Shown: positions 6,901 through 36,257 of the stretch, one piece after another | How positions within the stretch are numbered: position 1 is the stretch's first letter | Layout: every line of letters begins with the position of its first letter | From: Bacteroidales bacterium | GTDB lineage: Bacteria; Bacteroidota; Bacteroidia; Bacteroidales; F082 | NCBI GenBank assembly: GCA_017632935.1 | Contig: JAGBQJ010000049.1 | Location: 62,001-126,000 of the forward strand | DNA: 64,000 nt | Direction: 5' to 3' | The notes under the pieces: generated by a model | Database searches by the model: none | The model's input: the letters and a program-made list of their open reading frames with translations, nothing else | Told to the model about the DNA's origin: nothing | Program-made: the position numbers and the translations under genes

Positions 6901-6968
6901 GGCTTTTGAAAGTATGTCATCCCTACGTTGGAAAGTGCGGTGGCATGGGATCTGTGCTTTCAAAAGCC
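6901..6968 (+). repeat. Palindromic element A1 (CCC/GGG subtype)
   Basis: Arms GGCTTTTGAAAG and CTTTCAAAAGCC are perfectly complementary. The core carries ATGTCATCCC on the left and GGGATCTGTG on the right. Together with A2 it fills the space between the tmRNA promoter and the end of the response-regulator gene. Confidence 0.85.
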
Positions 6969-6980
6969 GTATAATTCGAA

Positions 6981-7047
6981 TGCCCGACCTTCTATAGATT
7001 CCCCGCGGCGCACATGCCTCTGCTGGAATGACATAGAAGGTTGGGCA
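6981..7047 (-). repeat. Palindromic element A2 (TCC/GGA subtype)
   Basis: Inverted partner of A1. Arms TGCCC(g)ACCTTCTAT and ATAGAAGGTTGGGCA pair apart from one mismatch. On the plus strand the core reads TAGATTCC and GGAATGACAT. The stretch is open in one frame as IDS-x7-WND, like the copies found inside aroB and aroA. Confidence 0.85.
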
Positions 7048-7058
7048 TTACAATTGAA

Positions 7059-8219
7059 CTAGTTCAGCGGGTTGCCAAAGAGCACGACATCGTCCTTGGT
7101 GATGGTGCTTCCGCAGAGGATGACGAGGCGCTCCACGATGTTGTGTAACTCGCGGATGTTGCCCGTCCACTGGTACTGCTGTAAGGCTTCCATGGCACCT
7201 GCATCGAAATGGGGCGCGGCCTTGCCCATGTCTTGGGCAATCAATTCGACGAAGTTGTTTACCAACAACGGGATGTCGTCTTTACGCTCTCGCAAAGGCG
7301 GCACTTGAATGACGATGACGCTCAGGCGATGGTAAAGGTCTTCCCTGAAGTTGCCTTTCTCAATTTCGGTTTTCAGGTTTTTGTTGGTGGCGGCCAAAAT
7401 CCTCACATTTACGGGGATTTCCTTCTCGCCACCCACGCGCACAATCTTGTTTTCCTGCAAGGCTCTCAACACCTTAGCCTGTGCCGAGAGGCTCATGTCG
7501 CCAATCTCGTCCAAGAAAAGCGTGCCGCCGTCGGCCAACTCAAAATCACCTTTCTTCTGTTTAATGGCCGATGTGAAAGAGCCTTTTTCGTGACCGAAGA
7601 GCTGACTTTCAATGAGTTCCGCAGGAATAGCAGCGCAGTTGACCTCGATGAAAGGGCCGTGGTTTCTCGGACTGAGTTCGTGCAGCTGACGAGCCACGAG
7701 TTCCTTGCCCGTGCCGTTTTCGCCCGTGATGAGCACACGTGCATTGGTCGGTGCCACTTTCCCGATCATGTCCTTCACTTGAAGCATCGGAGCCGACTCG
7801 CCAATCATCTGGCTCTGAATCTTTACGGCTTTCTTGAGTACTTTGTTTTCAGTGGCCAAATTCTTGTTGTTGAGCGCATTACGCAGTGTGATGAGCAAGC
7901 GGTTCAAGTCGGGTGGCTTAGGGATGAAGTCGAAAGCGCCTTTCTTGATGGCTTCGACAGCGGTGTCGATAGTGCCGTGTCCCGAAAGCATAATAACGGG
8001 CACGTCCGACTCCTGCCGGATGGCTTCCAACACTTCAATGCCGTCCATTTCGGGCATCTTGATGTCGCAGAAAACGGCATCAAAGTCTTGGTCTTTAATG
8101 AGTTGTAAGGCGTCTTTGCCGGTGCAGGCGTCTTCCACCTGATAGCTTTCGTTTTCGAGGATGTCGCGCAACACGCGGCGGATGGGGGCCTCGTCGTCGA
8201 TGATGAGTATCTTGGTCAT
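7059..8219 (-). CDS. Sigma-54-type response regulator lacking a DNA-binding domain
   Basis: 386 aa. An N-terminal receiver domain (about 1-120; phospho-acceptor Asp in FCDIKMPEMDG, Lys in IPKP) is followed by an AAA+ sigma-54 interaction domain (about 140-370; Walker A GENGTGKE, Walker B GGTLFLDEIGD, arginine finger region FREDLYHRL). The sigma-54 contact loop, normally GAFTGA, reads GSFTSA. The protein stops at about the end of the AAA+ lid, so the usual Fis-type helix-turn-helix is missing. It might activate sigma-54 without DNA binding or may have another role. No histidine kinase is adjacent. A -7 box lies at 8237-8244. Confidence 0.88.
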   Translation of the reverse strand: MTKILIIDDEAPIRRVLRDILENESYQVEDACTGKDALQLIKDQDFDAVFCDIKMPEMDGIEVLEAIRQESDVPVIMLSGHGTIDTAVEAIKKGAFDFIPKPPDLNRLLITLRNALNNKNLATENKVLKKAVKIQSQMIGESAPMLQVKDMIGKVAPTNARVLITGENGTGKELVARQLHELSPRNHGPFIEVNCAAIPAELIESQLFGHEKGSFTSAIKQKKGDFELADGGTLFLDEIGDMSLSAQAKVLRALQENKIVRVGGEKEIPVNVRILAATNKNLKTEIEKGNFREDLYHRLSVIVIQVPPLRERKDDIPLLVNNFVELIAQDMGKAAPHFDAGAMEALQQYQWTGNIRELHNIVERLVILCGSTITKDDVVLFGNPLN

Positions 8220-8236
8220 CTGTCTTTAATTTTGTG

Positions 8237-8274
8237 CAAAGATAGCGACTTTTGGCTCATTTTTTCTATTTTTG
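8237..8274. promoter_or_regulatory. Divergent -7 boxes for response regulator and SUMF1-like gene
   Basis: Minus-strand TATCTTTG at 8237-8244 points to the response-regulator gene. Plus-strand TATTTTTG at 8267-8274 points to the SUMF1-like gene, 18 bp before its ATG. Neither has a clear TTG at the standard spacing. Confidence 0.6.
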
Positions 8275-8292
8275 CCTTCAAATTATTGAAAA

Positions 8293-9135
8293 ATGAAGAG
8301 GATTTCACTGCTTTTTGGTTTGCTGTTGGGACTGAAGATGATGCTTTTTGCCCAAGACACACTTCCTGCGCCTACTTCATATCGGGTCAACAAGGTGTCT
8401 TTCAATATGGTACGTATCGAGGCGGGCGGCTTCTGGATGGGCGCGCAACGTAAGGATACGGCCGAGTTCAACTACGACCGCATGGCGCAAATCGATGAGT
8501 TGCCGGTGCATTTCGTGACAATGCGCGAAGATTATTATATCGGCCAAACTGAAGTGACGCAAAAGCTCTGGAAAGCCGTGATGGGCTATAACCCAAGCCG
8601 TTACAAATGCCCTAAACGTCCTGTGACTAATGTCGATTACTTTGAGGTGCAGGAATTCTTACGTCGCCTCGACAGCATCACAGGGATGCAGTTTCGCTTG
8701 CCTACCGAGGAGGAATGGGAGTATGCGGCACGTGGCGGGAAAAACTCGAAAGGCTATATCTTTAGCGGCGGCAAAGAGGTGGATCGTGTGGCTTGGCATA
8801 ACGGCAATGCGCGCAAAACCAAGAAAGTGAAGAAACGCAATGCCAACGAGTTAGGCATCTACGACATGAGTGGCAACGTGTGGGAATGGTGCGAATCCAA
8901 ATACCGCTATTATGACAAGGAGCGCAACGCCACTTTGGGTAAAGACGGACAGATGTACTGCATCCGGGGCGGCGGTTGGCAGTTGCCCAAGACTTCGTGC
9001 CGTGTCTCGTGGCGCGGCAAACGTCTGCCCGACCTGAAGAACTCTTTTGGCGGTTTCAGGCTGTGTCTGGATGCGAAATACGTGAAACAGGAAGAATCTC
9101 CCGAAGAGGAAATCCTCATGAAAGAGGAGGAGTGA
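8293..9135 (+). CDS. Secreted SUMF1/formylglycine-generating-enzyme-like protein
   Basis: 280 aa with a signal peptide (LLLGLKMMLFAQD, about residue 21) and no lipobox. The rest is an FGE-sulfatase fold: MVRIEAGGFWMG, YYIGQTEVTQKLWKAVMG, RLPTEEEWEYAARGG, YDMSGNVWEWCES, and the C-terminal GGFRLCL. The family includes true formylglycine-generating enzymes and many non-catalytic proteins, among them T9SS GldK/PorK. GldK is a longer lipoprotein, so this is probably not it. The acidic C-terminal tail (PEEEILMKEEE) is unusual. The last 20 bp overlap the convergent protease gene. Substrate unknown. Confidence 0.82.
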   Translation: MKRISLLFGLLLGLKMMLFAQDTLPAPTSYRVNKVSFNMVRIEAGGFWMGAQRKDTAEFNYDRMAQIDELPVHFVTMREDYYIGQTEVTQKLWKAVMGYNPSRYKCPKRPVTNVDYFEVQEFLRRLDSITGMQFRLPTEEEWEYAARGGKNSKGYIFSGGKEVDRVAWHNGNARKTKKVKKRNANELGIYDMSGNVWEWCESKYRYYDKERNATLGKDGQMYCIRGGGWQLPKTSCRVSWRGKRLPDLKNSFGGFRLCLDAKYVKQEESPEEEILMKEEE

Positions 9136-9556
9136 GTCTGAGCTTTTTACTCCTATAATTAATAACGGCCTTGTGTTTTTTCAGCAAATCCCCACCGATG
9201 ATGCCGTCGATGTGGGGTAGATGGAGTTTGCCATACATCTCGTGGATGTTTTCAAGGTCCAAGGCAACACCTTCATAATCTGTAATTTCCAGTTCTCCGA
9301 TGGACATAATGTCGATGATGAAAGTGGAGCTTTCCAAATCGGAGCTGCCCACTCCGGCAGTCAGGCCTTCCTTTTTCTCGAATTGAAGGTCATCAATAAA
9401 CGTGGTGATGGTTTTGGGGTCGAACACGGAGCGTGAGGCGCCTGTGTCAATAAGGAAACGGGCTCCCTTACCATGAATCGTTCCTTTGACCATGATATGG
9501 AAGCCGTCTCCCTCGATATCAAGCAGTTGAATAGGTACTTCGATATAACGTCGCAT
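9116..9556 (-). CDS. Retropepsin-like aspartic protease
   Basis: 146 aa, cytoplasmic by sequence. The active-site motif FLIDTGASRSVFD is followed near the C terminus by the second conserved turn (IIGGDLLKKHKAVINY), the layout of single-domain retropepsin-like proteases that dimerise to form one active site. It follows the LOG-family gene by one base, so they are probably co-transcribed. Its 3' end overlaps the convergent SUMF1-like gene by 20 bp. Substrate unknown. Confidence 0.8.
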   Translation of the reverse strand: MRRYIEVPIQLLDIEGDGFHIMVKGTIHGKGARFLIDTGASRSVFDPKTITTFIDDLQFEKKEGLTAGVGSSDLESSTFIIDIMSIGELEITDYEGVALDLENIHEMYGKLHLPHIDGIIGGDLLKKHKAVINYRSKKLRLTPPLS

Positions 9557-9557
9557 A

Positions 9558-10274
9558 TCAGAAGTTGGGCTTGATGGCGTATTTCTTGTAGAAGTCCTTG
9601 ATGATTTTCACGGCTTCGTCGGCGGTGTCGACGACATGGAAAATATCGAAGTCTTCTTCTTTGATCATGTGATTGGCGAGCAAAGTGCTTCTGAACCAGT
9701 CAATCAGTCCTTCCCAATAGTCTTTTCCAACAAGGACGATGGGGAAGTCGACCATTTTGTTGGTTTGGACGAGGGTGATGGCCTCGGAGAGTTCGTCCAA
9801 GGTGCCGAAGCCGCCAGGCATGGCGATGTAACCCTGCGCATAACGCATGAAGATGGTCTTGCGGACGAAGAAATAGTCGAAGTTGATGTTCTTGTCGTGG
9901 TCGATATAGGGATTGAAATGCTGCTCAAAAGGCAGGTTGATGTTTAGTCCAACGCTGGTGGCACCGCCTTGATTGGCGCCTTTGTTGCCGGCTTCCATGA
10001 TGCCGGGACCGCCACCTGTAATGGTGCCAAAGCCATAGTCGGCCAGTTTTTCCGCAATCTCGACGGCCATCTCATAGTATTTGTCGCCTGGCTGGGTGCG
10101 TGCCGATCCGAAAATGGCCACGCATGGCCCGATTTTCGACATTTTCTCCATGCCTTCCACAAATTCTGCCATGATCTTGAACACCGACCACGAATTGTGC
10201 GTCTTGATGTCGTTCCACGATTTGGGGTGGAAGCTTTCGCGGATGATTTGTTCTTCTTTTTCAGTTATGGGCAT
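9558..10274 (-). CDS. LOG-family protein (nucleoside-monophosphate phosphoribohydrolase type)
   Basis: 238 aa, Rossmann-like LOG/TIGR00730 family. Visible motifs are IFGSARTQPGDKYY, GGGPGIMEAGNKGA and the diagnostic PGGFGTLDELSEA, with the catalytic Glu and Arg positions. Family members cleave the N-glycosidic bond of nucleotide monophosphates (cytokinin-activating in plants); the bacterial physiological substrate is often uncertain. Old annotations as lysine decarboxylase are wrong. It leads a two-gene unit with the retropepsin-like protease. Confidence 0.9.
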   Translation of the reverse strand: MPITEKEEQIIRESFHPKSWNDIKTHNSWSVFKIMAEFVEGMEKMSKIGPCVAIFGSARTQPGDKYYEMAVEIAEKLADYGFGTITGGGPGIMEAGNKGANQGGATSVGLNINLPFEQHFNPYIDHDKNINFDYFFVRKTIFMRYAQGYIAMPGGFGTLDELSEAITLVQTNKMVDFPIVLVGKDYWEGLIDWFRSTLLANHMIKEEDFDIFHVVDTADEAVKIIKDFYKKYAIKPNF

Positions 10275-10275
10275 A

Positions 10276-10312
10276 AAAAATTCAAAATTTAAGATTCAAA
10301 ATTCAAAATTTC
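10276..10312. repeat. Short AT-rich direct repeats (ATTCAAAATT)
   Basis: Three close repeats of ATTCAAAATT lie between the LOG gene start and the tRNA-Gly promoter. Such low-complexity spacers are common in Bacteroidales; no function is evident. Confidence 0.6.
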
Positions 10313-10314
10313 TG

Positions 10315-10322
10315 TATTTTTG
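10315..10322 (+). promoter_or_regulatory. tRNA-Gly promoter -7 box
   Basis: TATTTTTG, 12 bp before the mature tRNA 5' end. Confidence 0.6.
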
Positions 10323-10334
10323 CAGCCGATAAAC

Positions 10335-10407
10335 GCGAATGTAGCTCAGTTGGTAGAGCATCAGCTTCCCAAGCTGAGGGTCGCGGGTTCGAACCCCGTT
10401 ATTCGCT
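10335..10407 (+). tRNA. tRNA-Gly (anticodon CCC)
   Basis: 73 nt cloverleaf. The acceptor GCGAATG pairs with TATTCGC, the anticodon stem TCAGC/GCTGA encloses the loop TTCCCAA, and the T arm reads GCGGG-TTCGAAC-CCCGT. CCA is not encoded. Confidence 0.93.
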
Positions 10408-10408
10408 C

Positions 10409-10447
10409 AAAATTATGGGGTTGCGCATAGCGCAACCCCATAATTTT
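10409..10447. terminator. Bidirectional terminator between tRNA-Gly and the SPFH gene
   Basis: A perfect 18-bp inverted repeat (AAAATTATGGGGTTGCGC and its complement) with a 3-nt loop, flanked by A and T runs on both sides. It starts 2 bp after the tRNA and ends just before the stop of the convergent gene, so it can end transcripts from both directions. Confidence 0.9.
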
Positions 10448-10448
10448 A

Positions 10449-11744
10449 TTACGCCATCGCTGTTCCGCATTCAGGGCAGAACTTGCCGGTCACCTCGGTG
10501 CCGCATTTCGGGCATTTCTTCGGGGCGTCGTCGGCAGGGATGGGAGCACCACACTCAGGGCAGAATTTGCCAGTGGTCTCGGTGCCGCACTTCGGGCACT
10601 TCTTGGCTGCCTTGGGAGCCGGGGCGGGAGTACCGCAGTTGGGGCAGAACTTACCCGTGATGGGAGTGCCGCACTTCGGGCAGGGAACGCCTTGCGTTTG
10701 AGGAACGGCAGCACCGCCTTGTTGCTGTTGTGCATACGGGTCGTAGTTCTGTTGCTGGCCTTGGTTGTTCCAAGCGTTCTGCATCACGCCACCCGTCATA
10801 CCGCCCGTGCCGGCGTTCATCATGCCGAGGCCGATGAAAGCGTTGCCAGCACCACCGGGGTTGTTGGCTGCATCGCCCATGACGTCGATGATCTTACCTT
10901 GCTGCATCATCGAGTTGGAGCTGTATTCGTAGCGGTCAATCTTGGCCTGGCTGGCTTCGTCGAGTGAGACGGATTCCACAGTGAAGCTGACCAAACGGAT
11001 ACCGCGGGCACGGATAGGCTCGTCGAACACGCGCTCGTCCATCACCTGTTTGATCTCGTCGGTGTAGCTCGGGAGTTCGAGCACAGGAACGCGGTGTTTG
11101 CTGTTGCCCATTTCGTTGAGCACGTTTTGGAAGGCTGCGATTACCTCGCTACGCATCTGCTCGGTGATGTCACCTTTCTTCACCACATTGCCCGTACCGG
11201 CATGGTTGCGCATGAAGATGGCCACGTCGTCAAGGCGGAAGGTGTACTTACCATAGCAGCGCACGTTGACGCCCATCGGGCTCAGCGAGCCGGTCATCTG
11301 GTTCGGGATGGCATGCGACCAGTCCTGGAAGGGGATAGGTGTGGCAGTGCCGAACTTGTTGTCGAGGATTTCCTTCGCGTTGAAGAAGAACACGGCTTGT
11401 TCCTTGGCGGGCGTGCCACCGTAAGTGAAACGCTGCCACATCTCCTTGAAAACGGGACCAAACTGTCCGCCGAAGAATGAAGGTGATGAGGATTCGTCGA
11501 AGGTGTAGACGCCTTCTTCCGCCGTTGCGTCAAGCACAGCACCGCTGTCGTAGATGACGGCCACCTGGCCGGGAGCCACGAGGATACGGCTGCCTTTTGA
11601 GATTTGACCCGTCTTAGTGGTTTGCTTCACCATCAGGGTTTCCATGTCCATGTTGTCGCATTTGATTAGGTCTAACCACTGGTCTTTCAGGGTTCCGCCG
11701 ATGGCGCCGCCAGCTGCACCTAAAATCTGTTTAATAAGTCCCAT
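10449..11744 (-). CDS. SPFH-domain protein with three paired zinc ribbons
   Basis: 431 aa. The N-terminal ~300 residues are an SPFH/virion-core-like (YdjI-type) domain: a glycine-rich start (MGLIKQILGAAGGAIGG), then ILVAPGQVAVIYDSGAV and RARGIRLVSFTVESVSLDE. A Gly/Asn/Gln linker is followed by three near-identical zinc-ribbon units of the form CPKCGT-x4-GKFCPECG, six CxxC knuckles in all. YdjI-type proteins are membrane-associated scaffolds in envelope-stress systems in other bacteria. It lies 97 bp after the Tim44-like gene on the same strand, and the two are probably one unit since both end in zinc ribbons. Confidence 0.83.
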   Translation of the reverse strand: MGLIKQILGAAGGAIGGTLKDQWLDLIKCDNMDMETLMVKQTTKTGQISKGSRILVAPGQVAVIYDSGAVLDATAEEGVYTFDESSSPSFFGGQFGPVFKEMWQRFTYGGTPAKEQAVFFFNAKEILDNKFGTATPIPFQDWSHAIPNQMTGSLSPMGVNVRCYGKYTFRLDDVAIFMRNHAGTGNVVKKGDITEQMRSEVIAAFQNVLNEMGNSKHRVPVLELPSYTDEIKQVMDERVFDEPIRARGIRLVSFTVESVSLDEASQAKIDRYEYSSNSMMQQGKIIDVMGDAANNPGGAGNAFIGLGMMNAGTGGMTGGVMQNAWNNQGQQQNYDPYAQQQQGGAAVPQTQGVPCPKCGTPITGKFCPNCGTPAPAPKAAKKCPKCGTETTGKFCPECGAPIPADDAPKKCPKCGTEVTGKFCPECGTAMA

Positions 11745-11841
11745 TGTGTTTTTTGTTTAATTGTTGATTATTTATTGTTTAATGTTGTTAAAAATCCGCG
11801 TTTTGCTTCTCAATAAATGTGCCAAATTATTGTCGAAAAGG

Positions 11842-12744
11842 TCAGTTTGTCGAATGAATATCAGACAGCACCCAGTCATGTTCGCCGTTGGTGATGACGC
11901 TGCCGCAATAGGTGCATTGGCCCGATGAGGTGACTTCAGTCGGGGCGCCGCAGTTGGGGCAGTTGGTGATGGAGTTGCCCTTCTTGCCTGGGTCGGTCTT
12001 CAGGCCAGCCTTGCGGTTGAAGACCAACTCGTATTTCATGTACCAGTCGCGGTCGGGGTCGCTCTCAATGACTTTGCCAGTGGCGTCACTGATGACATAG
12101 TCGCGCATCACGGCATTGAGCGCCACAGTCAGCACTTCCTTGTCGCCGTCCTGGACGAAAGATTGCAGTGAGCAGTGCTTGATGGCAATCTTCTCGACCA
12201 CATTAGTCTTGCCCAAACGGATGTATTCATCTAACTGTTGCTTGTGCGTGTTGAAGAGGGTCTCGCTCTCAAACGGGCGGATGGGCTTCCAATCCTTGGC
12301 GGTCCAGGCAGCCTGTATGGTCATGAACACCTCACGGGCAAAGCCGATGAACTTGTCGGACGAGAAGGCCGGGTCAATGGCTTGGATTTGCGCAGCCACC
12401 ATGGCACTGTTGTCGTAGTTAAAATCGGTGTTAGCTTGTTGTTGTACCTGCTGGTTGACGAATTTCGGGTCGGAGGCTTGTTTCTTCTTCTTTTTCCTGA
12501 CGATAATCAATACGACAATGACCACAATGACAACGGGAATCAATACTGGATACCTGAAGCAGATATATATGAGCCAAAGCAGGGCACCTAAGTCGGAATC
12601 TCCACCGTCAAAGCCACTGTCTCCACCGAGAAAGCGGTTCTGGTTGCCCACATCGGCAATGGCCATCGTGCTGCATAGCAAGGCCATGAGCATGAATGCA
12701 AAGGGTAAATACTGTCTTAATTTGTTGAAATCCAATTTTTTCAT
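11842..12744 (-). CDS. Membrane protein with Tim44-like domain and C-terminal zinc ribbon
   Basis: 300 aa. There is a hydrophobic N terminus, then a Gly/Asp-rich stretch and a strong transmembrane helix (PVLIPVVIVVIVVLIIV, about 67-85) followed by a lysine-rich stop-transfer segment. The soluble part (about 115-245) resembles the Tim44-like fold (FIGFAREVFMTIQAAWTAKD, then EYIRLG). A two-knuckle zinc ribbon near the C terminus reads CPNCGAPTEV...CTYCGSV. A cytosolic ribbon domain tethered to the membrane beside an SPFH scaffold suggests a membrane-surface complex. A -7 box is at 12781-12788. Confidence 0.72.
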   Translation of the reverse strand: MKKLDFNKLRQYLPFAFMLMALLCSTMAIADVGNQNRFLGGDSGFDGGDSDLGALLWLIYICFRYPVLIPVVIVVIVVLIIVRKKKKKQASDPKFVNQQVQQQANTDFNYDNSAMVAAQIQAIDPAFSSDKFIGFAREVFMTIQAAWTAKDWKPIRPFESETLFNTHKQQLDEYIRLGKTNVVEKIAIKHCSLQSFVQDGDKEVLTVALNAVMRDYVISDATGKVIESDPDRDWYMKYELVFNRKAGLKTDPGKKGNSITNCPNCGAPTEVTSSGQCTYCGSVITNGEHDWVLSDIHSTN

Positions 12745-12780
12745 AATTCAGGGTCTGAGTTAGTTCTCTTTTTAGCCCTA

Positions 12781-12788
12781 CAAAAATA
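12781..12788 (-). promoter_or_regulatory. -7 box for the Tim44-like/SPFH unit
   Basis: Minus-strand TATTTTTG, 36 bp before the start codon. No clear -33 TTG. Confidence 0.5.
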
Positions 12789-12893
12789 ATGAAAAAGTTG
12801 GAAAAAGTAGCGTTTTTGCTGAAAAAAACGAAAAATTGATACTGTCAATCCAAAGATTTAACGCCTTTTGTGTCACCGAAACAAAAGTTTTCC

Positions 12894-12901
12894 TATTTTT
12901 G
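12894..12901 (+). promoter_or_regulatory. tRNA-Val promoter -7 box
   Basis: TATTTTTG, 17 bp before the tRNA 5' end. Confidence 0.6.
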
Positions 12902-12918
12902 CAGCGCGAAATGCAAGA

Positions 12919-12993
12919 GGGAGCTTAGCTCAGTTGGTTCAGAGCATCGCCCTTACAAGGCGGGGGTCGTTGGTTCGAGTCCAACAGTTCCCA
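12919..12993 (+). tRNA. tRNA-Val (anticodon TAC)
   Basis: 75 nt. The acceptor GGGAGCT pairs with AGTTCCC, the anticodon stem TCGCC/GGCGG (one mismatch or wobble) encloses CTTACAA, and the T arm is GTTGG-TTCGAGT-CCAAC. CCA is not encoded. Confidence 0.93.
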
Positions 12994-13009
12994 CTCTCAA
13001 AGACAAGGA

Positions 13010-13050
13010 AAAACAAAAAACCCTAACCGATTGGTTAGGGTTTTGTTTTG
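13010..13050. terminator. Bidirectional terminator between tRNA-Val and tRNA-Glu
   Basis: CCCTAACC-GATT-GGTTAGGG is flanked by an A-rich run on the left and TTTTGTTTT on the right. It can terminate both convergent tRNA transcripts. Confidence 0.88.
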
Positions 13051-13051
13051 G

Positions 13052-13125
13052 TAGTCTCTCCGGGATTTGAACCCGAGTTACCAGGATGAAAACCTGACGT
13101 CCTGACCAGACTAGACGAAGAGACC
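13052..13125 (-). tRNA. tRNA-Glu (anticodon TTC)
   Basis: 74 nt on the minus strand. The acceptor GGTCTCT pairs with AGAGACT, the D-arm region TCGTCTAG and the TAAC variable loop match tRNA-Glu, the anticodon loop is TTTTCAT, and the T arm is CGGGT-TCAAAT-CCCGG. CCA is not encoded. Confidence 0.9.
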
Positions 13126-13148
13126 ACTTCGTGTCGTTTTTGACGCTG

Positions 13149-13178
13149 CAAAAGTAGACAAAATTTCGTTACCTACAA
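13149..13178 (-). promoter_or_regulatory. tRNA-Glu promoter
   Basis: Minus-strand TTG (13176-13178), 19 bp, TACTTTTG (13149-13156): a full Bacteroidota promoter ahead of the tRNA. Confidence 0.7.
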
Positions 13179-13248
13179 TAAATTCGAGCAGATTTTTGCC
13201 AACTTTTTTGTAAAATATTGATTTACAGCGTTAAAAATAGGTAGGAAA

Positions 13249-14064: not shown

Positions 14065-14127
14065 GATGCAAGAGTTTTAATGAAGGATAAACGATGCGTG
14101 TCGGTTTTTATTGCACGGAATCGGTGG

Positions 14128-14135
14128 CAAAAATA
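14128..14135 (-). promoter_or_regulatory. porT promoter -7 box
   Basis: Minus-strand TATTTTTG in the 90-bp gap between ubiE and porT, 64 bp before the porT start. Confidence 0.5.
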
Positions 14136-14154
14136 GGAAAAAATGCAATATGTA

Positions 14155-16510: not shown

Positions 16511-16531
16511 CAGAGCGTTTTAGAGGTTGAA

Positions 16532-27392: not shown

Positions 27393-27403
27393 TGTATGGT
27401 TAA

Positions 27404-28291: not shown

Positions 28292-28306
28292 AATGTTATT
28301 ATTCTA

Positions 28307-28331: not shown

Positions 28332-28335
28332 TGGA

Positions 28336-28878: not shown

Positions 28879-28882
28879 GCCG

Positions 28883-28890
28883 CAAATGTA
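28883..28890 (-). promoter_or_regulatory. -7 box of the DUF6913-like gene/dapA unit
   Basis: Minus-strand TACATTTG only 4 bp before the ATG, implying a leaderless transcript if used. Confidence 0.5.
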
Positions 28891-28933
28891 GGGAAATTCT
28901 ATGAAATAGGATGCCTTTTTGTGTAAAAATCGC

Positions 28934-28941
28934 TATTTTTG
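28934..28941 (+). promoter_or_regulatory. -7 box of the MBL hydrolase gene
   Basis: TATTTTTG, 50 bp before the ATG, divergent from the preceding box. Confidence 0.55.
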
Positions 28942-28991
28942 CACTGGAAATTTGCCGAGGCTTTTGGTGAATATAAGTTAATGATAAGAAT

Positions 28992-29753: not shown

Positions 29754-29794
29754 CTGAACAACGGCTAACTGATAACTGCAAACTGTCAACTGAT
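29754..29794 (+). repeat. Low-complexity spacer of AACTG-type repeats
   Basis: The motif AACTG recurs four times (CTAACTGATAACTGCAAACTGTCAACTG, shortened). Similar G-poor spacers occur at 10276 and 37640. No role is evident. Confidence 0.5.
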
Positions 29795-30253
29795 ATGAAA
29801 GCAACTTATTCCCAAAGATTGATCAAACTCGCAGACCTTAACCACCACCAGACCTTCTTCGCGGGTCGTTGCTCGGAGTGGTTTCTGGAGAGCTCCTATT
29901 TCGCTGTTGCACAATATGTTGATACCAAGGATACCGTGCTTCTAGTGCTTCACGGCATCGACTTCAAGTTCCCGATTTTCGCGGGCGATATCGTCACTTT
30001 CGAGAGTAAGGTCATCTCAGTGGGTCGCAGCACTTTGACGGTCTACACGAAGATGTACCGCAGCCGCGAGCCTGAAAAGGTCGCTGCTGATGGCTTCGCC
30101 ACTTTCTCATATCTGGATGAAAACCACCATTCCAGACCACATGGCATCGTGATCGAACCGGAGACGGAAGAGGAAAAGTTCCTGCAGCAGCAGGCATTGG
30201 AGGTGATGGAAGACTCTAAGCGTAGGGCAAAAGCAATGAACCAGAGGTTCTGA
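29795..30253 (+). CDS. Hotdog-fold acyl-CoA thioesterase
   Basis: 152 aa. Similar to YbgC/YciA-type hotdog thioesterases: NHHQTFFAGRCSEWFLE and FPIFAGDIVTFESKVISVGRSTLTVY, then a charged C-terminal helix. It should hydrolyse acyl-CoA; substrate length unknown. The gene ends at the first base of palindromic element B. Confidence 0.8.
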   Translation: MKATYSQRLIKLADLNHHQTFFAGRCSEWFLESSYFAVAQYVDTKDTVLLVLHGIDFKFPIFAGDIVTFESKVISVGRSTLTVYTKMYRSREPEKVAADGFATFSYLDENHHSRPHGIVIEPETEEEKFLQQQALEVMEDSKRRAKAMNQRF

Positions 30254-30307
30254 GCAGGCATGTCATCCCAGCACTGGCATGTGGGTGAGCAAGGGATCTA
30301 TGCCTGC
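30254..30307 (+). repeat. Palindromic element B (CCC/GGG subtype)
   Basis: Arms GCAGGCATG and CATGCCTGC (through the core end) flank GTCATCCC and GGGATCTATG. It exactly fills the gap between two convergent genes, beginning right after the thioesterase stop codon. Confidence 0.88.
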
Positions 30308-30311
30308 GGTA

Positions 30312-31553
30312 TTATAACTCCAGCTCTTTCGGATAGCAAATAAAATGCTTAACGACAGGCTGCGAAAGCACCGAGATATTCAGCTGGTCGGAGGCCTCGC
30401 TGATATCCTTCATGGTGCCGTCCTTGTATAAAATGTTGATGGCCGGCTTCTTGGGATGGTAGGCATGGTTTGACGAAATGCCCTGAAGCAGGGCGAAATC
30501 TGCTTCTTCCAACGACCAACCGTATAGTTTGGCAATCTTGTTGCGAATGTCATTGATATAATTCGGGTCAAACTCACCTTCGTGCATCTCGATTTTGAAC
30601 AAATGTCTGTTTGTCAGCCTTCTGCAAAGCTCTGAGAGCACGCGATCCTCGTCATCGCACCAGGCTTTCACGGCGGTCATCACATCGTAATCATCCAACT
30701 GGCAAAACTTGTCCAAGACGGCATTGGGGTCGTCGCTCTCAAAAGGATTCTGGTTTTTGAGGAAGAACGACAGGGCTGGGGTGGCGAACAAATCGCGCTC
30801 TCGGCTAAGCATCTTGGCGCGCTTCAGGATATTGCGCAGCATATATTCGGCACTAAGCACGGCCTTGTGCATATACACCTGCCAATACATGATGCGCCTG
30901 GCCACCAAGAAGCTCTCCACGGAATAGATGCCTTTGGCCTCAATAGCGAGTTCATTGCCATTGCCAACGACTTCCATCATCTCCAACAAACGCTCGGCGT
31001 TTACGCTGCCTTCCGCAACTCCAGTAAAGAAACTGTCACGTTTCAGGTAGTCGATGCGGTCGACATCCAATTGGCTGGAAATGAGTTTTGTAAGAAATCC
31101 TTTTTCATATTCCCCCTTAAACATCAGGATGGCTTTGTCCAAACCCCCGTTATGGATTTCATTGAACTTCTGCATCACCATCAGCGAGAGGTCTTCGTGG
31201 GAAATACCCTGCACTATGCTGTTCTCCAGCGTGTGTGAGAAAGGTCCGTGACCACTGTCGTGGAGCAGGATGGCGAGAGAAGCAGCTTCCAATTCTTCAT
31301 CGGTGATGTCGTAACCCTTGCCACGCAGCAGTTGTATGGCACGTCGCATGAGGTGCATGGCGCCGAGGCTGTGGGCAAAACGCGTATGGTTGGCCCCGGG
31401 GTATACCAGATTGGTCATGCTGACCTGCTTGATGCGTCTAAGGCGTTGGAAATAAGGGTGTTCTATAATGTCGAAATGCAGCTCGTCAGGAATGTTGACG
31501 AAGCCGTAGATGGGGTCGTTGAAGATTTTCTTTTTGTTGTAGGATGTGGCCAT
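30312..31553 (-). CDS. HD-domain phosphohydrolase (dNTPase-like)
   Basis: 413 aa from the ATG at 31553 (MATSYNKKKIFNDPIYGFV). A TTG 21 bp further upstream overlaps the -7 box and is rejected. HD superfamily: THTRFAHSLGAMHLM, catalytic ILLHDSGHGPFSHTLE, and LDVDRIDYLKRDSFFTG, the pattern of SamHD1/YdhJ-like nucleotide hydrolases. No partner gene is linked; divergent from porX. Confidence 0.87.
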   Translation of the reverse strand: MATSYNKKKIFNDPIYGFVNIPDELHFDIIEHPYFQRLRRIKQVSMTNLVYPGANHTRFAHSLGAMHLMRRAIQLLRGKGYDITDEELEAASLAILLHDSGHGPFSHTLENSIVQGISHEDLSLMVMQKFNEIHNGGLDKAILMFKGEYEKGFLTKLISSQLDVDRIDYLKRDSFFTGVAEGSVNAERLLEMMEVVGNGNELAIEAKGIYSVESFLVARRIMYWQVYMHKAVLSAEYMLRNILKRAKMLSRERDLFATPALSFFLKNQNPFESDDPNAVLDKFCQLDDYDVMTAVKAWCDDEDRVLSELCRRLTNRHLFKIEMHEGEFDPNYINDIRNKIAKLYGWSLEEADFALLQGISSNHAYHPKKPAINILYKDGTMKDISEASDQLNISVLSQPVVKHFICYPKELEL

Positions 31554-31571
31554 GAACTTCAAATTTTGCCG

Positions 31572-31579
31572 CAAAGGTA
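31572..31579 (-). promoter_or_regulatory. HD-hydrolase promoter -7 box
   Basis: Minus-strand TACCTTTG, 18 bp before the ATG. It settles the start at 31553. Confidence 0.6.
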
Positions 31580-31600
31580 GTGTTTTTTTTATTCATTTAG

Positions 31601-31665
31601 GCTTTTGAAGCCATGTCATCCCCACGTTGGGTGGTGCGATGGCATGGGATCTATGGCTTCAAAAG
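31601..31665 (+). repeat. Palindromic element C1 (CCC/GGG subtype)
   Basis: Arms CTTTTGAAGCCATG and CATGGCTTCAAAAG are complementary (the core lies inside: ATGTCATCCC ... GGGATCTATG). First half of an inverted pair between the divergent HD and porX promoters. Confidence 0.88.
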
Positions 31666-31693
31666 TCATCCATGTTGGTTATGCTTCTTTGCT

Positions 31694-31755
31694 CTACCGC
31701 GCATAGATTCCATCCAAACCCACTCGCCCCGTTGGAATGACATGCGCGGCGGTAG
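31694..31755 (-). repeat. Palindromic element C2 (TCC/GGA subtype)
   Basis: Arms CTACCGCGCATAG and CATGCGCGGCGGTAG pair with a 3-nt difference; core CATAGATTCC ... GGAATGACATG. Open in the IDS-x7-WND frame. Partner of C1. Confidence 0.85.
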
Positions 31756-31772
31756 AAGCCGTCCAAAAAAGT

Positions 31773-31803
31773 TTGTCCTTTTAAAACAAAAACCTTAATT
31801 TTG
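31773..31803 (+). promoter_or_regulatory. porX promoter
   Basis: TTG (31773-31775), 20 bp, TAATTTTG (31796-31803), 27 bp before the ATG at 31831. It rules out the TTG start at 31801, which lies inside the box. Confidence 0.75.
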
Positions 31804-31830
31804 CGTTCTATCCATACAAACAAAAGAAAT

Positions 31831-33384
31831 ATGGACAAAACGACAATCCTTTGGGCCGACGACGAGATAGATCTCCTCAAGCCCCATATCATGTTTTTGG
31901 AACAGAAAGGCTACGAGGTGGTGACGGCCAACAACGGTTCCGATGCCATCGACCTTGTGCGCCAACGCCATTTCGACATTGTATTTTTGGACGAGCAAAT
32001 GCCTGGTATCTCGGGTATCGAGGCACTTGAAGTCATCAAGCGTGAATATCCCAACCTGCCCGTGGTGATGATTACCAAGAGCGAGGAGGAACGTATCATG
32101 GAGGATGCAATAGGCTCTAATATAGCGGATTACTTGATTAAGCCTGTCAACCCGAACCAGATTCTGCTGTCGCTGAAACGCAACCTGGAGAACAAGAAAC
32201 TCCGCGACGAGAAATCGACGATGGGCTACCAGCAGGAGTTCCGCAAAATCAGCATGGACCTCAACAACAACCTTAACTTTGATGAGTGGGTTGACCTCTA
32301 TAAGAATCTTGTACGCTGGGAACTGGAACTACAGAAATCCACCGATGAGGGCATCAAAGGCATCCTCGCCGACCAAAAGCAAGAGGCCAACACACAGTTC
32401 ACGCGCTATATCGAGCGGAATTATGTTGACTGGATTCAAGGTCGCTCGGAGAAGCCGGTCATGTCGCATACCGTGGTGCGCGACAAGGTGATTCCACGCC
32501 TTGACGACAACGACAAACCGCTCTTCCTCGTCGTCATCGACAACTTGCGCTACGACCAGTGGAAGGCCATCCAGCCGCTGATTGAGACTTATTTCCGTGT
32601 GGAAGCCGATGATGTGTATTACAGCATCCTGCCGACCACTACGCAGTATGCGCGCAATGCACTCTTTGCCGGACTGATGCCGCTTGAAATCCGTCGTCGC
32701 TACCCGAAATGGTGGATTGACGAGGAGGACGAAGGCACGAAGAACCAGTTTGAGGGTGAGCTTTTGGGCGAGCAGTTGAAGCGTTTCGGAAAGAACATCA
32801 AGTACTCATATAATAAGGTGTTGAATTTACAGGCGGGCAAGAAACTATACGAACAGATGTCCAACCTTATGCCTAACAAGCTGAATGTCATCGTTTACAA
32901 CTTCGTGGACATGCTTTCGCACGCTCGCACCGAGATGGAAATCATCCGCGAACTGGCGGATGACGAGGAAGCCTACCGCTCGCTGATGTACTCCTGGTTC
33001 GAGCATTCCAGCCTTTTCGACATGATGCGCTTCATCGCCGAGAAAGGCTGCGACATGGTCATCACTACCGACCACGGCTCCACCTACGTGGAAAAGCCAG
33101 TAAGGATTTTGGGCGACCGAGAAGTGAACACTAACCTGCGTTACAAGTACGGTAAGAACCTGAAATACAACCTGAAGGAAGTCTTTGAGGTGAAGGATCC
33201 AGAGAAGGTTTTCCTGCCCAAGGTGAATCTGAGTACGACCTACGTCTTTGCCGGCGAGAGCGACTTCTTCGCCTATCCGAACAACTACAACTATTACGTC
33301 AGCTATTACCGCAACACCTTCCAGCACGGTGGCATCTCGATGAGCGAGATGCTGATTCCGGTGACGCACCTCACAGCGAAGTAG
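31831..33384 (+). CDS. porX: PorX-type response regulator with PglZ domain (type IX secretion)
   Basis: 517 aa. Receiver domain at 1-120 (acidic triad ADDE, phospho-acceptor Asp54 in FLDEQMPG, Lys in LIKPVNP). A helical linker leads to a PglZ-type alkaline-phosphatase-like domain from about 200 on (FLVVIDNLRYDQWK, LPTTTQYARNALFAGL, ITTDHGSTYVEKPV). PorX, with kinase PorY and sigma factor SigP, controls T9SS in Bacteroidota and its PglZ domain cleaves nucleotide substrates. No porY is in the window. Confidence 0.92.
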   Translation: MDKTTILWADDEIDLLKPHIMFLEQKGYEVVTANNGSDAIDLVRQRHFDIVFLDEQMPGISGIEALEVIKREYPNLPVVMITKSEEERIMEDAIGSNIADYLIKPVNPNQILLSLKRNLENKKLRDEKSTMGYQQEFRKISMDLNNNLNFDEWVDLYKNLVRWELELQKSTDEGIKGILADQKQEANTQFTRYIERNYVDWIQGRSEKPVMSHTVVRDKVIPRLDDNDKPLFLVVIDNLRYDQWKAIQPLIETYFRVEADDVYYSILPTTTQYARNALFAGLMPLEIRRRYPKWWIDEEDEGTKNQFEGELLGEQLKRFGKNIKYSYNKVLNLQAGKKLYEQMSNLMPNKLNVIVYNFVDMLSHARTEMEIIRELADDEEAYRSLMYSWFEHSSLFDMMRFIAEKGCDMVITTDHGSTYVEKPVRILGDREVNTNLRYKYGKNLKYNLKEVFEVKDPEKVFLPKVNLSTTYVFAGESDFFAYPNNYNYYVSYYRNTFQHGGISMSEMLIPVTHLTAK

Positions 33385-33394
33385 TGGTATTTAA

Positions 33395-33447
33395 GCAGGC
33401 ATGTCATCCCTGCGTTGGATTGTGTGATGGCTGGGATCTATGCCTGC
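33395..33447 (+). repeat. Palindromic element D (CCC/GGG subtype)
   Basis: Same arms as element B (GCAGGC/GCCTGC), core ATGTCATCCC ... GGGATCTATG, 53 bp. It lies between the porX stop and the tsaE promoter. Confidence 0.88.
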
Positions 33448-33450
33448 TAA

Positions 33451-33480
33451 TTGCCGCATGAAATAAAAACACTATCTTTG
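33451..33480 (+). promoter_or_regulatory. tsaE-aroB-aroA promoter
   Basis: TTG (33451-33453), 19 bp, TATCTTTG (33473-33480), 20 bp before the tsaE ATG. It starts 4 bp after element D. Confidence 0.82.
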
Positions 33481-33499
33481 CGGCGTTAATTCTATTGAA

Positions 33500-33937
33500 A
33501 TGAATTCCAAAGAATTCCATATCAGCAGTGTGGAAGCCCTTGCCGAGGTCTCCGACTACTTGATTTCTCTGCGTGAGGAGGCCGATGTCATAGCCTTTTA
33601 TGGTTCCATGGGCGCAGGCAAGACCACGCTCATCAAGAACTTGTGCCATAGAATGGGTGTCACCGACGAGGTGAACAGCCCGACTTTCGCCATTGTCAAT
33701 GAATATGTCACGGAGGAGGGTGAATCGGTCTATCATTTTGATTTCTATCGTATTAAGAAGTTGGAAGAAGCCTACGACATCGGCTACGAGAACTATTTTT
33801 ACAGCGGCAACCTCTGCCTCATCGAGTGGCCCGAAATGATAGAGCCTTTGTTGCCTGAGAAATACATCCGCGTGGAGATTCAGCACGGCGAATCGGACGA
33901 AGAGCGTGTTATTGAATGTCAAGTGGTTGAAGAATGA
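33500..33937 (+). CDS. tsaE: tRNA threonylcarbamoyladenosine biosynthesis ATPase
   Basis: 145 aa. P-loop FYGSMGAGKTTLIKNL, then NSPTFAIVNEY, VYHFDFYRIKK and CLIEWPEMI, all typical of TsaE, the ATPase that works with TsaB and TsaD to make t6A37 in tRNA. First gene of the unit; its stop overlaps the aroB start (ATGA). Confidence 0.94.
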   Translation: MNSKEFHISSVEALAEVSDYLISLREEADVIAFYGSMGAGKTTLIKNLCHRMGVTDEVNSPTFAIVNEYVTEEGESVYHFDFYRIKKLEEAYDIGYENYFYSGNLCLIEWPEMIEPLLPEKYIRVEIQHGESDEERVIECQVVEE

Positions 33938-35061
33938 GCATATTGAAAACAAACATTGCCCCAACCTCAGAATGCATAGATTCCCGCCATCGCACTGCCC
34001 ATCGCGGGAATGACATGCATCCTGAGGCTTTAGAAAGCATGTCATCCCTGCGGGGAGATGAGCGGGGCATGGGATCTATGCTTTCTAAAGCCTCGCAGGT
34101 TTTTATATTGACCGATGAAAACGTGGCGCCTTTTTGGTTGCCCGAAGTGGCGTATTGGCTGCATTGCGAAGCGGCGGTCGACATCATTATCAAGGCAGGA
34201 GAGAAGCACAAAAACCTGCAAACCGTCCAACGCATCTGGAAAACCTTGATGAAGCACCATGCCGACCGTAACGCCTTGATCATCAATCTCGGCGGCGGTA
34301 CTATCACCGACTTGGGAGGATTCGCTGCTTCCACTTACAAGCGCGGCATTAAGTTCATCAATGTGCCGACCACCTTGCTCGCCATGGTGGATGCGGCGAT
34401 AGGAGGGAAGACGGCCATCGATTTTTGCGGCGCGAAAAACCAAATTGGCACTTTTGCCGAGGCGGAAGAAGTATTGGTTGATCCTGTGTTTTTGACCACC
34501 TTACTCAGGAGGGATATTCTGTCGGGTTTGGCCGAAATGCTGAAATATGGATTCATTGCCGATGCCCAATTGTTAGAAGCCGATCTTGAGAATTACCAAG
34601 ACTTCATTTTGCGGGCAGGCGAAATCAAACGCGAAATTGTTGCAAAAGACCCATACGAATCGGGGCTACGAAAGATCTTGAATTTCGGTCATACCCTTGG
34701 TCATTCCATTGAAAGTCATAGCCTTACGACGGATGCCCCATTTCTTCATGGAGAAGCCGTGGCGTTGGGCATGGCAGCCGCCTTGTGGCTTTCTGTGAAG
34801 CAATGTGGTCTTGATGAAACGGTGCTGAAGGATTATGAAAAGAGGTTGCCTATACTGCTTTCGGAGGCTGAATTGAATTTGGCGGAAAATGATATAGAGC
34901 CTATTATGGCTTATCTTGTCCATGACAAGAAGAATAAGGGTGAAAAGCCTCAGTTTGTCTTGCTTGAAGACATTGGCAGACCCGTGTGGGATAAGGAGGT
35001 GCCAACTGGACTGGTGCGTGAAGCGTTGGAATATGTCATCACGAAGGTGTCGATGAAATGA
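33934..35061 (+). CDS. aroB: 3-dehydroquinate synthase carrying an in-frame repeat insertion
   Basis: 375 aa. It converts DAHP to 3-dehydroquinate in the shikimate pathway. NAD-binding GGGTITDLGGFAAS, KRGIKFINVPTTLLAMVDAAIGGKTAIDF, and zinc ligands in GLAEMLKYGFI and NFGHTLGHSIES are intact. Residues 11-53 are encoded entirely by the palindromic pair E1/E2 (33964-34092, 43 codons), lying between MSILKTNIAP and VFILTDENVAPFW, where related proteins have a short link after the first strand. Without it the protein would be about 332 aa. Catalytic residues are all downstream, so it is probably functional. It overlaps tsaE and aroA by 4 bp each. Confidence 0.93.
   Translation: MSILKTNIAPTSECIDSRHRTAHRGNDMHPEALESMSSLRGDERGMGSMLSKASQVFILTDENVAPFWLPEVAYWLHCEAAVDIIIKAGEKHKNLQTVQRIWKTLMKHHADRNALIINLGGGTITDLGGFAASTYKRGIKFINVPTTLLAMVDAAIGGKTAIDFCGAKNQIGTFAEAEEVLVDPVFLTTLLRRDILSGLAEMLKYGFIADAQLLEADLENYQDFILRAGEIKREIVAKDPYESGLRKILNFGHTLGHSIESHSLTTDAPFLHGEAVALGMAAALWLSVKQCGLDETVLKDYEKRLPILLSEAELNLAENDIEPIMAYLVHDKKNKGEKPQFVLLEDIGRPVWDKEVPTGLVREALEYVITKVSMK
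33964..34027 (-). repeat. Palindromic element E1 (TCC/GGA subtype), inside aroB
   Basis: Arms CCTCAG(A)ATGCAT and ATGCAT(C)CTGAGG; core GCATAGATTCC ... GGAATGACATGC. Read in frame in aroB as IDS-x7-GND. Its right arm overlaps the left arm of E2. Confidence 0.9.
34024..34094 (+). repeat. Palindromic element E2 (CCC/GGG subtype), inside aroB
   Basis: Arms GAGGCTTTAGAAAGCATG and CATGCTTTCTAAAGCCTC pair perfectly over 17-18 bp. Core GTCATCCC ... GGGATCTATG. Together E1 and E2 add a multiple of three bases and no stop codon in the aroB frame. Confidence 0.92.
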
Positions 35062-36257
35062 AACTGCATTGCGACATAACCCTGCCTGCCAGCAAGAGCG
35101 AATCGAATCGCGCTTTGATGATTGCTGCGTATGGGGATTTCGCACCGGTTTTTCAAAACCTTTCCGACTCTAATGACACGCTTGTCTTGAAAGAAGCATT
35201 GCAGTGTTTGCCCTCTATAGATTCCATCCTGCCCACATTCCAACGCAGGAATGACATAGAGGGCAATCAACATATCATTGACATTGCCGATTGCGGCACA
35301 GCGGCACGTTTTATGACGACCTATCTGGCTTTTCACGAAGGTGACTGGCTCCTGACGGGAACGGAACGCATGAAGCAACGCCCCATGACTCCCTTGGTTG
35401 ATGCCTTGCGTGTGTTGGGAGCCAATATACAATATGCTGAAAATGAAGGTTGTCTGCCCTTGAAAATCAAAGGAAATCAAATTAAGGGCGGAAAGGTTTC
35501 CATCGACATGACCCAAAGCAGCCAGTTCGCATCCTCTTTGTTGTTGGCCGCACCGCTGTGGCCGCAAGGCCTTGAGATGGAATTGCTTGGTGAACTCAGT
35601 TCGTTGCCTTACCTCGAAATGACCTTGGCCATGATGCGACATTTCGGCGCAGAAGTTGAACATAAGGAAAGGACGATTAAGGTGTTCCCAAAGCCTTATC
35701 AATCAAGAGGTTTTACGATTGGTGCAGATTGGAGCGCAGCCTCGTATTGGTACGAGATGGCGGCATTCAGCGAGGAATGTGAGATAAGGATAAGGTCCCT
35801 GAGCCTGTCGAAGGGCCGTTCCAACCTTCAAGGCGATGCCATCATCGCTGAGTGGATGACTCAATTGGGTGTCGGCACATTCGTTGAAAACGATGCCATT
35901 GTTTTGAGAAAAATTCCTTTTGAAAACAGCCCCTTGTCTTTTGATTTTTCCCAGCATCCCGACCTTTATCCTACCGTGGCCGCCATTTGCGCTGGATTGA
36001 ATGTTGAAGCCACTTTCACAGGCCTCGACAACCTCGCTCTCAAAGAGTCAGATAGGGTAGAGGCTATGCAAACCGAATTGGAAAAAATCGGTCAACATTC
36101 GTTACGTTTTTGTGCCCACAATGACCACCGTATCGTGATGGCTTTGGCTCCCCTTTCCATGTTGTTCAGCACCGTTAGTTTCGACCATCCCGAGGTGGTG
36201 GAAAAGTCTTACCCGAGCTTTTGGAAAGATGCCTCGTTTTTGCCTGTTTGTGGATGA
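35058..36257 (+). CDS. aroA: EPSP synthase with two in-frame repeat insertions
   Basis: 399 aa. It makes 5-enolpyruvylshikimate-3-phosphate. PASKSESNRALM (PEP/shikimate site), DCGTAARFMTTYLA, GTERMKQRPM, QSSQFASSLLLAAPL and LALKESDRVEAM are intact. Residues 51-69 correspond to palindromic element F, between LKEALQ and IIDIADCGTA, a loop that is short in relatives. Residues about 246-254 (RSLSLSKGRS) correspond to a second palindrome of a different family. Both keep the frame and avoid catalytic motifs. Start overlaps the aroB stop by 4 bp. Confidence 0.93.
   Translation: MKLHCDITLPASKSESNRALMIAAYGDFAPVFQNLSDSNDTLVLKEALQCLPSIDSILPTFQRRNDIEGNQHIIDIADCGTAARFMTTYLAFHEGDWLLTGTERMKQRPMTPLVDALRVLGANIQYAENEGCLPLKIKGNQIKGGKVSIDMTQSSQFASSLLLAAPLWPQGLEMELLGELSSLPYLEMTLAMMRHFGAEVEHKERTIKVFPKPYQSRGFTIGADWSAASYWYEMAAFSEECEIRIRSLSLSKGRSNLQGDAIIAEWMTQLGVGTFVENDAIVLRKIPFENSPLSFDFSQHPDLYPTVAAICAGLNVEATFTGLDNLALKESDRVEAMQTELEKIGQHSLRFCAHNDHRIVMALAPLSMLFSTVSFDHPEVVEKSYPSFWKDASFLPVCG
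35210..35264 (-). repeat. Palindromic element F (TCC/GGA subtype), inside aroA
   Basis: Arms GCCCTCTAT and ATAGAGGGC are perfectly complementary; core TAGATTCC ... GGAATGACAT. Translated in the same frame as E1 in aroB (IDS-x7-RND). Confidence 0.9.
35794..35817. repeat. Short palindrome, GTCGAAGGG family, copy 2, inside aroA
   Basis: GGTCCCTGAGCCTGTCGAAG followed by GGCC, 24 bp (8 codons), an imperfect palindrome related to 28307-28331. It encodes RSLSLSKGRS ahead of NLQGDA. Confidence 0.75.

Follow-up and report, generated by a model that had tools for sequence, protein, structure and literature searches.

REP-like palindromic elements with covarying arms in one genus of uncultured gut Bacteroidales

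We describe here a family of short palindromic elements, nine copies of which lie in a 64,000-nucleotide (nt) stretch of a Bacteroidales genome (assembly GCA_017632935.1, contig JAGBQJ010000049.1, positions 62,001 to 126,000; hereafter the window). Each copy consists of a conserved core set between variable outer arms that pair with each other. The reading that we favor, and to which we give an even chance, is that these are genus-restricted, apparently non-autonomous palindromes resembling repetitive extragenic palindromes (REPs), whose arms are kept matched mainly by template switching during replication. A DNA polymerase crossing the hairpin would change from copying one arm to copying its partner and thereby rewrite one of them from the other, so that the arms would stay self-complementary; the same switching would occasionally invert the core between the arms, and selection for a hairpin may contribute to the upkeep of the arms. 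PMC8604942 describes template switching between short inverted repeats that homogenizes arms and inverts spacers, in coding genes as well.

Results

Nine copies in the window and 47 in the genome

The preliminary description of this DNA had placed nine copies, and all nine were found where it put them (Table 1). The joint pattern ATGTCATYCC-N18..26-GGRATCTAT has eight exact matches in the window and none in 100 shuffles, and the ninth copy (6914) differs from it at one position. With one mismatch allowed, matches to the half-site ATGTCATYCC alone do not exceed chance in the window (13 versus a shuffled mean of 9.35); thus, the case for the copies rests on both halves jointly. Folded as single-stranded DNA, the copies reach z-scores from -1.74 (copy at 30260, where 9 of 200 shuffles were as good) to -6.06. 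A1 and A2 are the first and second halves of an inverted dimer, and C1 and C2 also form a dimer. Copy B is flanked by two convergent open reading frames (ORFs), and copy D lies 16 nt downstream of a stop codon.

In the entire genome (2.86 Mb in 62 contigs) the exact pattern occurs 47 times, and a reversed control pattern has no match there, so the outcome that would have refuted the preliminary description, a genome-wide search yielding only the nine copies, did not occur. The pattern was found in 15 of 60 genomes (this one included), all of the same genus, and in none of the 24 from outside it; an order-wide search recovered it in 3 of 393 genomes, again all within the genus, and in 0 of 388 outside. 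A covariance model matched in 44 of 99 genomes of the genus, with at most 54 candidates scored per genome, which makes high copy counts lower bounds. The relatives are named as uncultured Bacteroidales and "bacterium F082," some tied to roe deer, yak, or horse gut. In these searches the family is restricted to one genus of uncultured gut Bacteroidales.

Table 1. Copies of the element in the window and the aroA ORF that hosts copy F
Feature	Extent	Core	Strand	Arms, pairing, or setting	Fold z
Copy A1	6901..6968	6914-6956	+	arms GGCTTTTGAAAG / CTTTCAAAAGCC	-4.85
Copy A2	6979..7049	6993-7034	-	outermost core pair T-A	-4.61
Copy B	30254..30307	30260-30302	+	arms GCAGGC / GCCTGC	-1.74
Copy C1	31600..31667	31613-31655	+	arms GGCTTTTGAAGCC / GGCTTCAAAAGTC	-5.60
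Copy C2	31697..31749	31702-31743	-	arms CCGCGC / GCGCGG	-2.71
Copy D	33394..33448	33401-33442	+	arms AGCAGGC / GCCTGCT	-4.48
Copy E1	33964..34028	33975-34016	-	start of aroB ORF	-4.96
Copy E2	34025..34093	34039-34080	+	start of aroB ORF	-5.52
Copy F	35208..35266	35216-35257	-	in frame in aroA; arms TTGCCCTCT / AGAGGGCAA	-6.06
aroA (EPSP synthase) ORF	35058..36257		+	host of copy F	

A tmRNA gene (6427-6827, minus strand) adjoins the dimer A1/A2, and tRNAs lie at 10335, 12919, and 13052. Only these four genes matched Rfam at gathering score in the window; no copy did.

The arms vary but remain paired

From the outside inward, the hairpin has an outer stem of variable sequence, then the asymmetric internal loop GTC/CT, then the inner stem ATYCC/GGRAT; the latter closes a conserved loop about 21 nt long, in which 36 aligned copies share GG, GTG, and GGC blocks. 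Some folds show variable inner pairing. In the same 36 copies, standard pairs fill 89.4% of the paired cells versus 69.4% after shuffling, and the covariation score is 0.532 versus 0.165; neither value was reached in any of 500 shuffles. Sliding the partner arm by one to three columns lowered pairing to 28 to 43%. Two weaker measures stayed within the shuffles (both-sides-changed pairs, 33/500; further pair types, 101/500). The alignment left out 4 of 40 copies, namely, the worst-paired one (L011), two near-duplicates at L014, and one copy of L030. With all 40 included, arm positions 2 to 9 were Watson-Crick paired in 80% of cases (shuffled mean, 36%; maximum, 47.5%). A non-redundant set of 117 copies, drawn from all loci collected by then and including groups of orthologs, gave 86.6% at positions 2 to 8, compared with 37.5% in shuffles and 44.9% at most. 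Perfect arms in this set mostly have 6 to 8 pairs, with a second group at 13 to 16. The claim that each variable arm pairs with its own partner was thus borne out far beyond shuffles, and the same applies to the reported covariation of the inner CCC/GGG and TCC/GGA states: the T-A or C-G state is matched in 36 of 36 aligned copies (19 and 17, respectively) and broken in 2 of 117.

Among dispersed copies, certain arm classes recur (GGCTTNNGAAAGC, AGCCTCCC, AGCAGGC, and CAGCAGCC), which implies that arms are in part passed on together with the element. The arm sequences are therefore not all unrelated, which corrects an earlier impression.

A 23-nt mini-palindrome, ATGCNNNGCATTCGACGNAGTCA, lies inside the element stem, following GGAA, in four distinct copies, L038 (identical to L073 and L124), L301, L313, and L168:8482, and makes a repeat within a repeat. 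It is also carried by L207:17701(-) and L253:10185, of which one occurrence is in a CGTC-like repeat and the other is not.

An orthologous site in aroA with matched arm changes

The AroA protein of the window is an EPSP synthase by sequence, and the core of copy F codes for residues 53 to 67 of its ORF. In a structure model (mean predicted local distance difference test [pLDDT] score, 88.4; predicted template modeling score, 0.86), residues 55 to 69 fall below a pLDDT of 50 and lie between a well-modeled helix and strand, so that the core-coded segment appears as a disordered loop in the predicted structure.

Extraction of aroA from both strands yielded 58 of 74 loci that fitted the search pattern, the rest being dropped, and 36 distinct sites. 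Twenty of these carry a detected element, three of them with a related core containing GCC or ACC; two have a degenerate core (L033 and L119), and 14 lack the element. Nine of the 14 element-free sites are equal in length, and the two main filled classes are longer by 13 or 16 residues, a net gain of 39 or 48 nt over the usual empty length. Such filled and empty orthologous sites show that the element takes independent positions in relatives, for which the preliminary description had allowed that there might be none.

The 16-residue class comprises 10 distinct arm pairs, in which 95 of 120 cells are Watson-Crick paired, versus a shuffled mean of 76.5 and a maximum of 92. Between species, changes in one arm are matched in the other (none of 1,000 shuffles was as good), and more than one pair type occurs at 7 of 12 arm positions. 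This set includes the degenerate L119 and not L273 or L033. Covariation of the arms across copies, and between species at orthologous aroA sites, upholds the proposal that something acts on the palindrome rather than on its sequence.

We also considered that the arms might have arisen by simple inverted copying of the native flank, as the left arm of L035 overlaps conserved aroA codons. This origin was weakened by the resemblance of the L035 arms to a dispersed class and by the gain of only 39 nt at this site. In two element-free sites, L051 and L052, a repeat resembling CGTC-type REPs (GTCATTGC...) occupies the same spot. A second variable insertion spot of AroA holds SLSLSKGR in the window and HVMPTDEG-type segments in L041 and L044.

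Inverted cores between similar arms

At aroA, the core also occurs in opposite orientations. L035 and L281 share the same strings beside the core (ATGAAGCTTTAGTAAGCAT on the left and ATGCATACTAAAGCTTCATTCAT on the right), and their cores are identical at 13 of 42 positions before inversion and at 38 of 42 once one core is inverted. Six further, overlapping pairs with similar, not identical, arms (L035/L108, L113/L103, L102/L038, L107/L104, L107/L041, and L033/L103) show 14 to 20 identities before inversion and 29 to 37 after it. A core compared with its own reverse complement averages 36% identity and reaches at most 52%.

In the aroA gene tree, L033 and L103 are sisters of opposite core orientation (support 100/99), and one supported clade consists of L035, L108, and L104, the last of these with the other arm class. 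The tree does not place L281 with L035 despite their identical arms, which may reflect exchange of aroA segments between species. Among 15 single-element rows (10 minus, 5 plus), the tree requires at least five changes of orientation, and the filled or empty state requires at least six changes; the partly unresolved tree and exchange of aroA between species could inflate both minimum counts.

Nested copies in prmC and a dimer at the aroB start

The prmC gene was extracted from both strands, with 28 of 30 loci fitted (all except L299 and L317) and 27 distinct linkers. Of these linkers, 7 have 31 residues and no copy, 19 contain at least one copy, and 1 is long without a copy. A whole copy lies inside the loop of another in L296 to L298 and L300, and by reading likewise in L301; a second copy is located within or behind the first in L303, L305, L308, L309, L311, and L313. 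All prmC copies have one orientation. The 48-residue class gains 51 nt net over the usual empty length. At both genes the gain is less than a core plus two full arms, and host sequence was therefore probably replaced.

The arrangement of E1 and E2 at the start of the aroB ORF is kept in several relatives. The last three bases of E2 are ATG, residue 49 of this ORF, and aroB matches in dimer-free genomes begin near this ATG, so E1 and E2 may lie 5' of the true start.

Genomic setting of the copies

The surroundings of 51 copies were determined by rough ORF calls in 21 stretches of the genome: 23 copies are located between unidirectional, 15 between convergent, and 2 between divergent ORFs, 9 are intragenic (the pair at the aroB start included), and 2 lie at an edge. 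Pairs within 120 nt make up 12 inverted dimers among the 51 copies, 10 of them plus-then-minus. In a mechanical count, 19 of 60 non-redundant copies of this genome fall inside an ORF 240 nt or longer and lie at least 60 nt from either end of it. Seven of ten copy-holding ORFs scanned match Pfam families (PMT_2, alpha-L-rhamnosidase, topoisomerase, glycosyltransferase, GH20, PrmC-type methyltransferase, and radical SAM), and three do not. In aroA, prmC, and other genes, the element sits in frame and leaves the reading frame intact. In nine ORFs the core is read from its minus side, and eight of them share one frame (IDS or IDP ... NDM or DDM), whereas L170 uses another; the remaining two frames of the 42-nt core, as read from the sequence, carry TAG or TGA. 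The element is thus found between genes, frequently as inverted dimers, in the loops of other copies of itself, and in protein linkers, where in-frame copies persist.

A survey of empty sites covered 1.88 of about 2.8 Mb of the genome G102. Few of the 60 copies aligned cleanly on both sides; among ten sites inspected in G102, both genomes have a copy at three, two could not be used, and other repeats occupy several. The G102 sites orthologous to L001 and L163 hold another palindromic sequence where the genome of the window has an in-frame element, and the repeated palindromes C1 and C2 of G102 (GTAGAGACG...CGTCTCTAC) differ in their centers.

Discussion

Template switching and what weighs against it

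Arm homogenization and spacer inversion coincide at aroA, and we therefore take template switching as the main process that matches the arms. The empty, single, and nested states of prmC also count for this account. Several observations weigh against it. Recurrence of arm classes implies that the arms also move together with the element, and covariation alone fits selection for a hairpin as well. Inversion was found only at aroA, where independent insertions are still conceivable: orientation was the same across the species compared for the aroB copies, constant in the 19 filled prmC linkers, and unchanged at five two-member orthologous sites, which together with the aroA cluster were the informative cases in our orientation clustering, as neighboring dimer members fused into one cluster at the aroB and upstream sites. 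Arm pairing at aroB is weak, both for E1 (100 of 120 versus 95.6 shuffled; 67 of 1,000 shuffles as good) and for E2 (89 of 98 versus 80.2; 22 of 1,000).

It is tempting to speculate further, if only tentatively, that these are mobile hairpins whose stems are rewritten by host replication, whose cores flip, and which nest in each other, so that the palindrome would persist while its sequence turns over; being readable in both orientations, they would provide essential enzymes with new peptide loops. At aroA and prmC, the empty, filled, inverted, and nested states across related species record the origin and upkeep of a palindrome. Paired changes are usually read as a sign of selected RNA; if many of them are made by replication here, this would call for caution in covariation-based RNA discovery.

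Alternative explanations

Selection for the hairpin is the main alternative to template switching. The hairpins would then function as RNA, as stabilizers of mRNA 3' ends, attenuators, or protein-binding sites, with compensatory mutations under selection on the transcript. We regard this as unlikely. It would fit the distribution of the 40 intergenic copies (15 convergent, 23 unidirectional, and 2 divergent), compared with 31, 105, and 30, respectively, of the 166 background gaps of more than 40 nt in the same 21 stretches, and REPs are often held to be transcribed (PMC3733652). At arm positions 1 to 8 of the 117 copies, G-T cells outnumber A-C cells (28 versus 16); however, 11 of the 28 are concentrated at position 5, and this excess decides nothing between template switching and hairpin selection. 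An RNA role leaves the inverted cores unexplained, the host genes of in-gene copies are functionally unrelated and suggest no obvious common RNA role, and the copies lack Rfam matches.

A classical REP/REPIN system, in which a RAYT (a Y1 HUH transposase) acts in trans and the arms are part of the recognition hairpin, has a similarly low probability in our judgment. The frequent inverted dimers agree with it, as does the presence of Y1_Tnp in 70 of 99 genomes of the genus. However, the element was found at none of 32 Y1_Tnp loci, 18 of them from element-bearing genomes and representing part of the Y1 genes there. The two Y1 genes of the genome of the window and four others adjoin different REPs, the element-free close relatives G101 and G018 have six Y1_Tnp matches each, and a GTAG tag is absent from the conserved ends of the aligned copies. 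A dedicated RAYT was suspected when, among the matches listed, profile positions 2 to 119 were matched in 11 genomes, all element-bearing; this candidate was dropped, as the four of these 11 loci that were read (L292 to L295) adjoin CCCCTACGGGG-type palindromes and not the element. In these four genomes of the genus, the RAYT-type Y1 genes lie between shared neighbors that read as asnS-like and aroF-like. The suggested transposase sharing the ends of the element was not found in the loci examined, all of which were Y1_Tnp loci, and the search for an autonomous element with the same terminal repeats, as for a miniature inverted-repeat transposable element, was equally negative within that Y1_Tnp scope. 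The ATG found at each end of the core could represent a target-site duplication, though the palindrome forces ATG as well.

Less probable still is insertion of the core into loops of pre-existing palindromes, so that the variable arms would be the stem of the target. The prmC copies inside the loop of another copy are in line with this, and so are the other palindromes at the G102 orthologs of L001 and L163, the short one at the L167 site, and the REPs inside palindromes reported from three species (PMC3733652). On the other side, most empty aroA and prmC linkers read as free of palindromes, the inner prmC copy has arms of its own, unlike the outer loop, and dispersed copies have arm classes in common. 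In a weak test, inspection of 60 of 359 G102 palindromes revealed none that had such arms but no core. That the copies are ordinary intrinsic terminators or chance palindromes is very improbable: some follow shortly behind stop codons, but the loop and internal loop are conserved, copies lie inside genes, the copies inspected have no T-run after the stem, and the joint pattern is absent from 100 shuffles.

Comparison with known systems

Palindromic elements of Rickettsia such as RPE-1 are reportedly found in frame inside protein genes. The element described here resembles RPE-1 in staying in frame within such genes and differs from it apparently in sequence, and also in hosts and in its core of about 42 nt that occurs in both orientations and nests in the same linkers. 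With it, a Bacteroidales genus would join the few groups known to have in-frame palindromic repeats in essential genes. With REPIN/RAYT systems it shares inverted pairs of short hairpins dispersed over a genome, but it has no GTAG tag and no linked RAYT at the 32 Y1 loci.

Arm homogenization, paired multi-base change, spacer inversion, and occurrence in coding genes are features of template switching at short inverted repeats (PMC8604942, PMC8794818). There, it is a mutational process in yeast genes and RNA genes, whereas here it would act on a dispersed bacterial repeat family.

The closest relation is to the CGTC-tagged REPs (Di Nocera et al. 2013, PMC3733652), which include Neisseria dRS3 and Rickettsia RPE-4 and RPE-6 and occur in Bacteroidetes among other phyla. 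The preliminary description knew of no Bacteroidales family like the present one. This stands insofar as our searches of the open-access literature returned no description of the family, nor of an inverting REP core; it does not stand for the half-sites and tag, which fit the CGTC-tagged REPs known from Bacteroidetes. Like these, the element has a CGTC or TGTC tag (TGTC in 36 of 36 aligned copies), A-T and T-A at the first two stem positions (invariant in the 36), a short tail after the stem, dimers, and some in-gene copies. CGTC-tagged REPs lack a dedicated transposase, and none was found here at the Y1_Tnp loci examined. Their dimers are mostly head-to-head; here, 12 inverted dimers were counted among 51 copies, 10 of them of one kind. 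REPs set inside palindromes, namely, A. variabilis GTAG-15, T. roseum GTAG-23, and H. neapolitanus CGTC-1, likewise have a REP between inverted arms, but each of those families has one consensus palindrome, and here many arm sequences covary (PMC3733652).

Other features agree in part or set the element apart. In CGTC-tagged REPs the tag is unpaired; here, its GTC lies in the internal loop while its T pairs in a variable, self-complementary outer stem that encloses the tag, in which the TA of the tail also pairs. The conserved inner stem has 5 bp instead of 8 to 9 bp, the conserved loop about 21 nt instead of 4 to 5 nt, and the tail is CTA in 35 of 36 aligned copies and CTG in one, where CGTC-tagged REPs mostly have CCA (PMC3733652). 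Since stem length, loop length, and tail all differ, the element is, to judge from its sequence, REP-like and a new variant relative to the CGTC-tagged REPs rather than a member of them.

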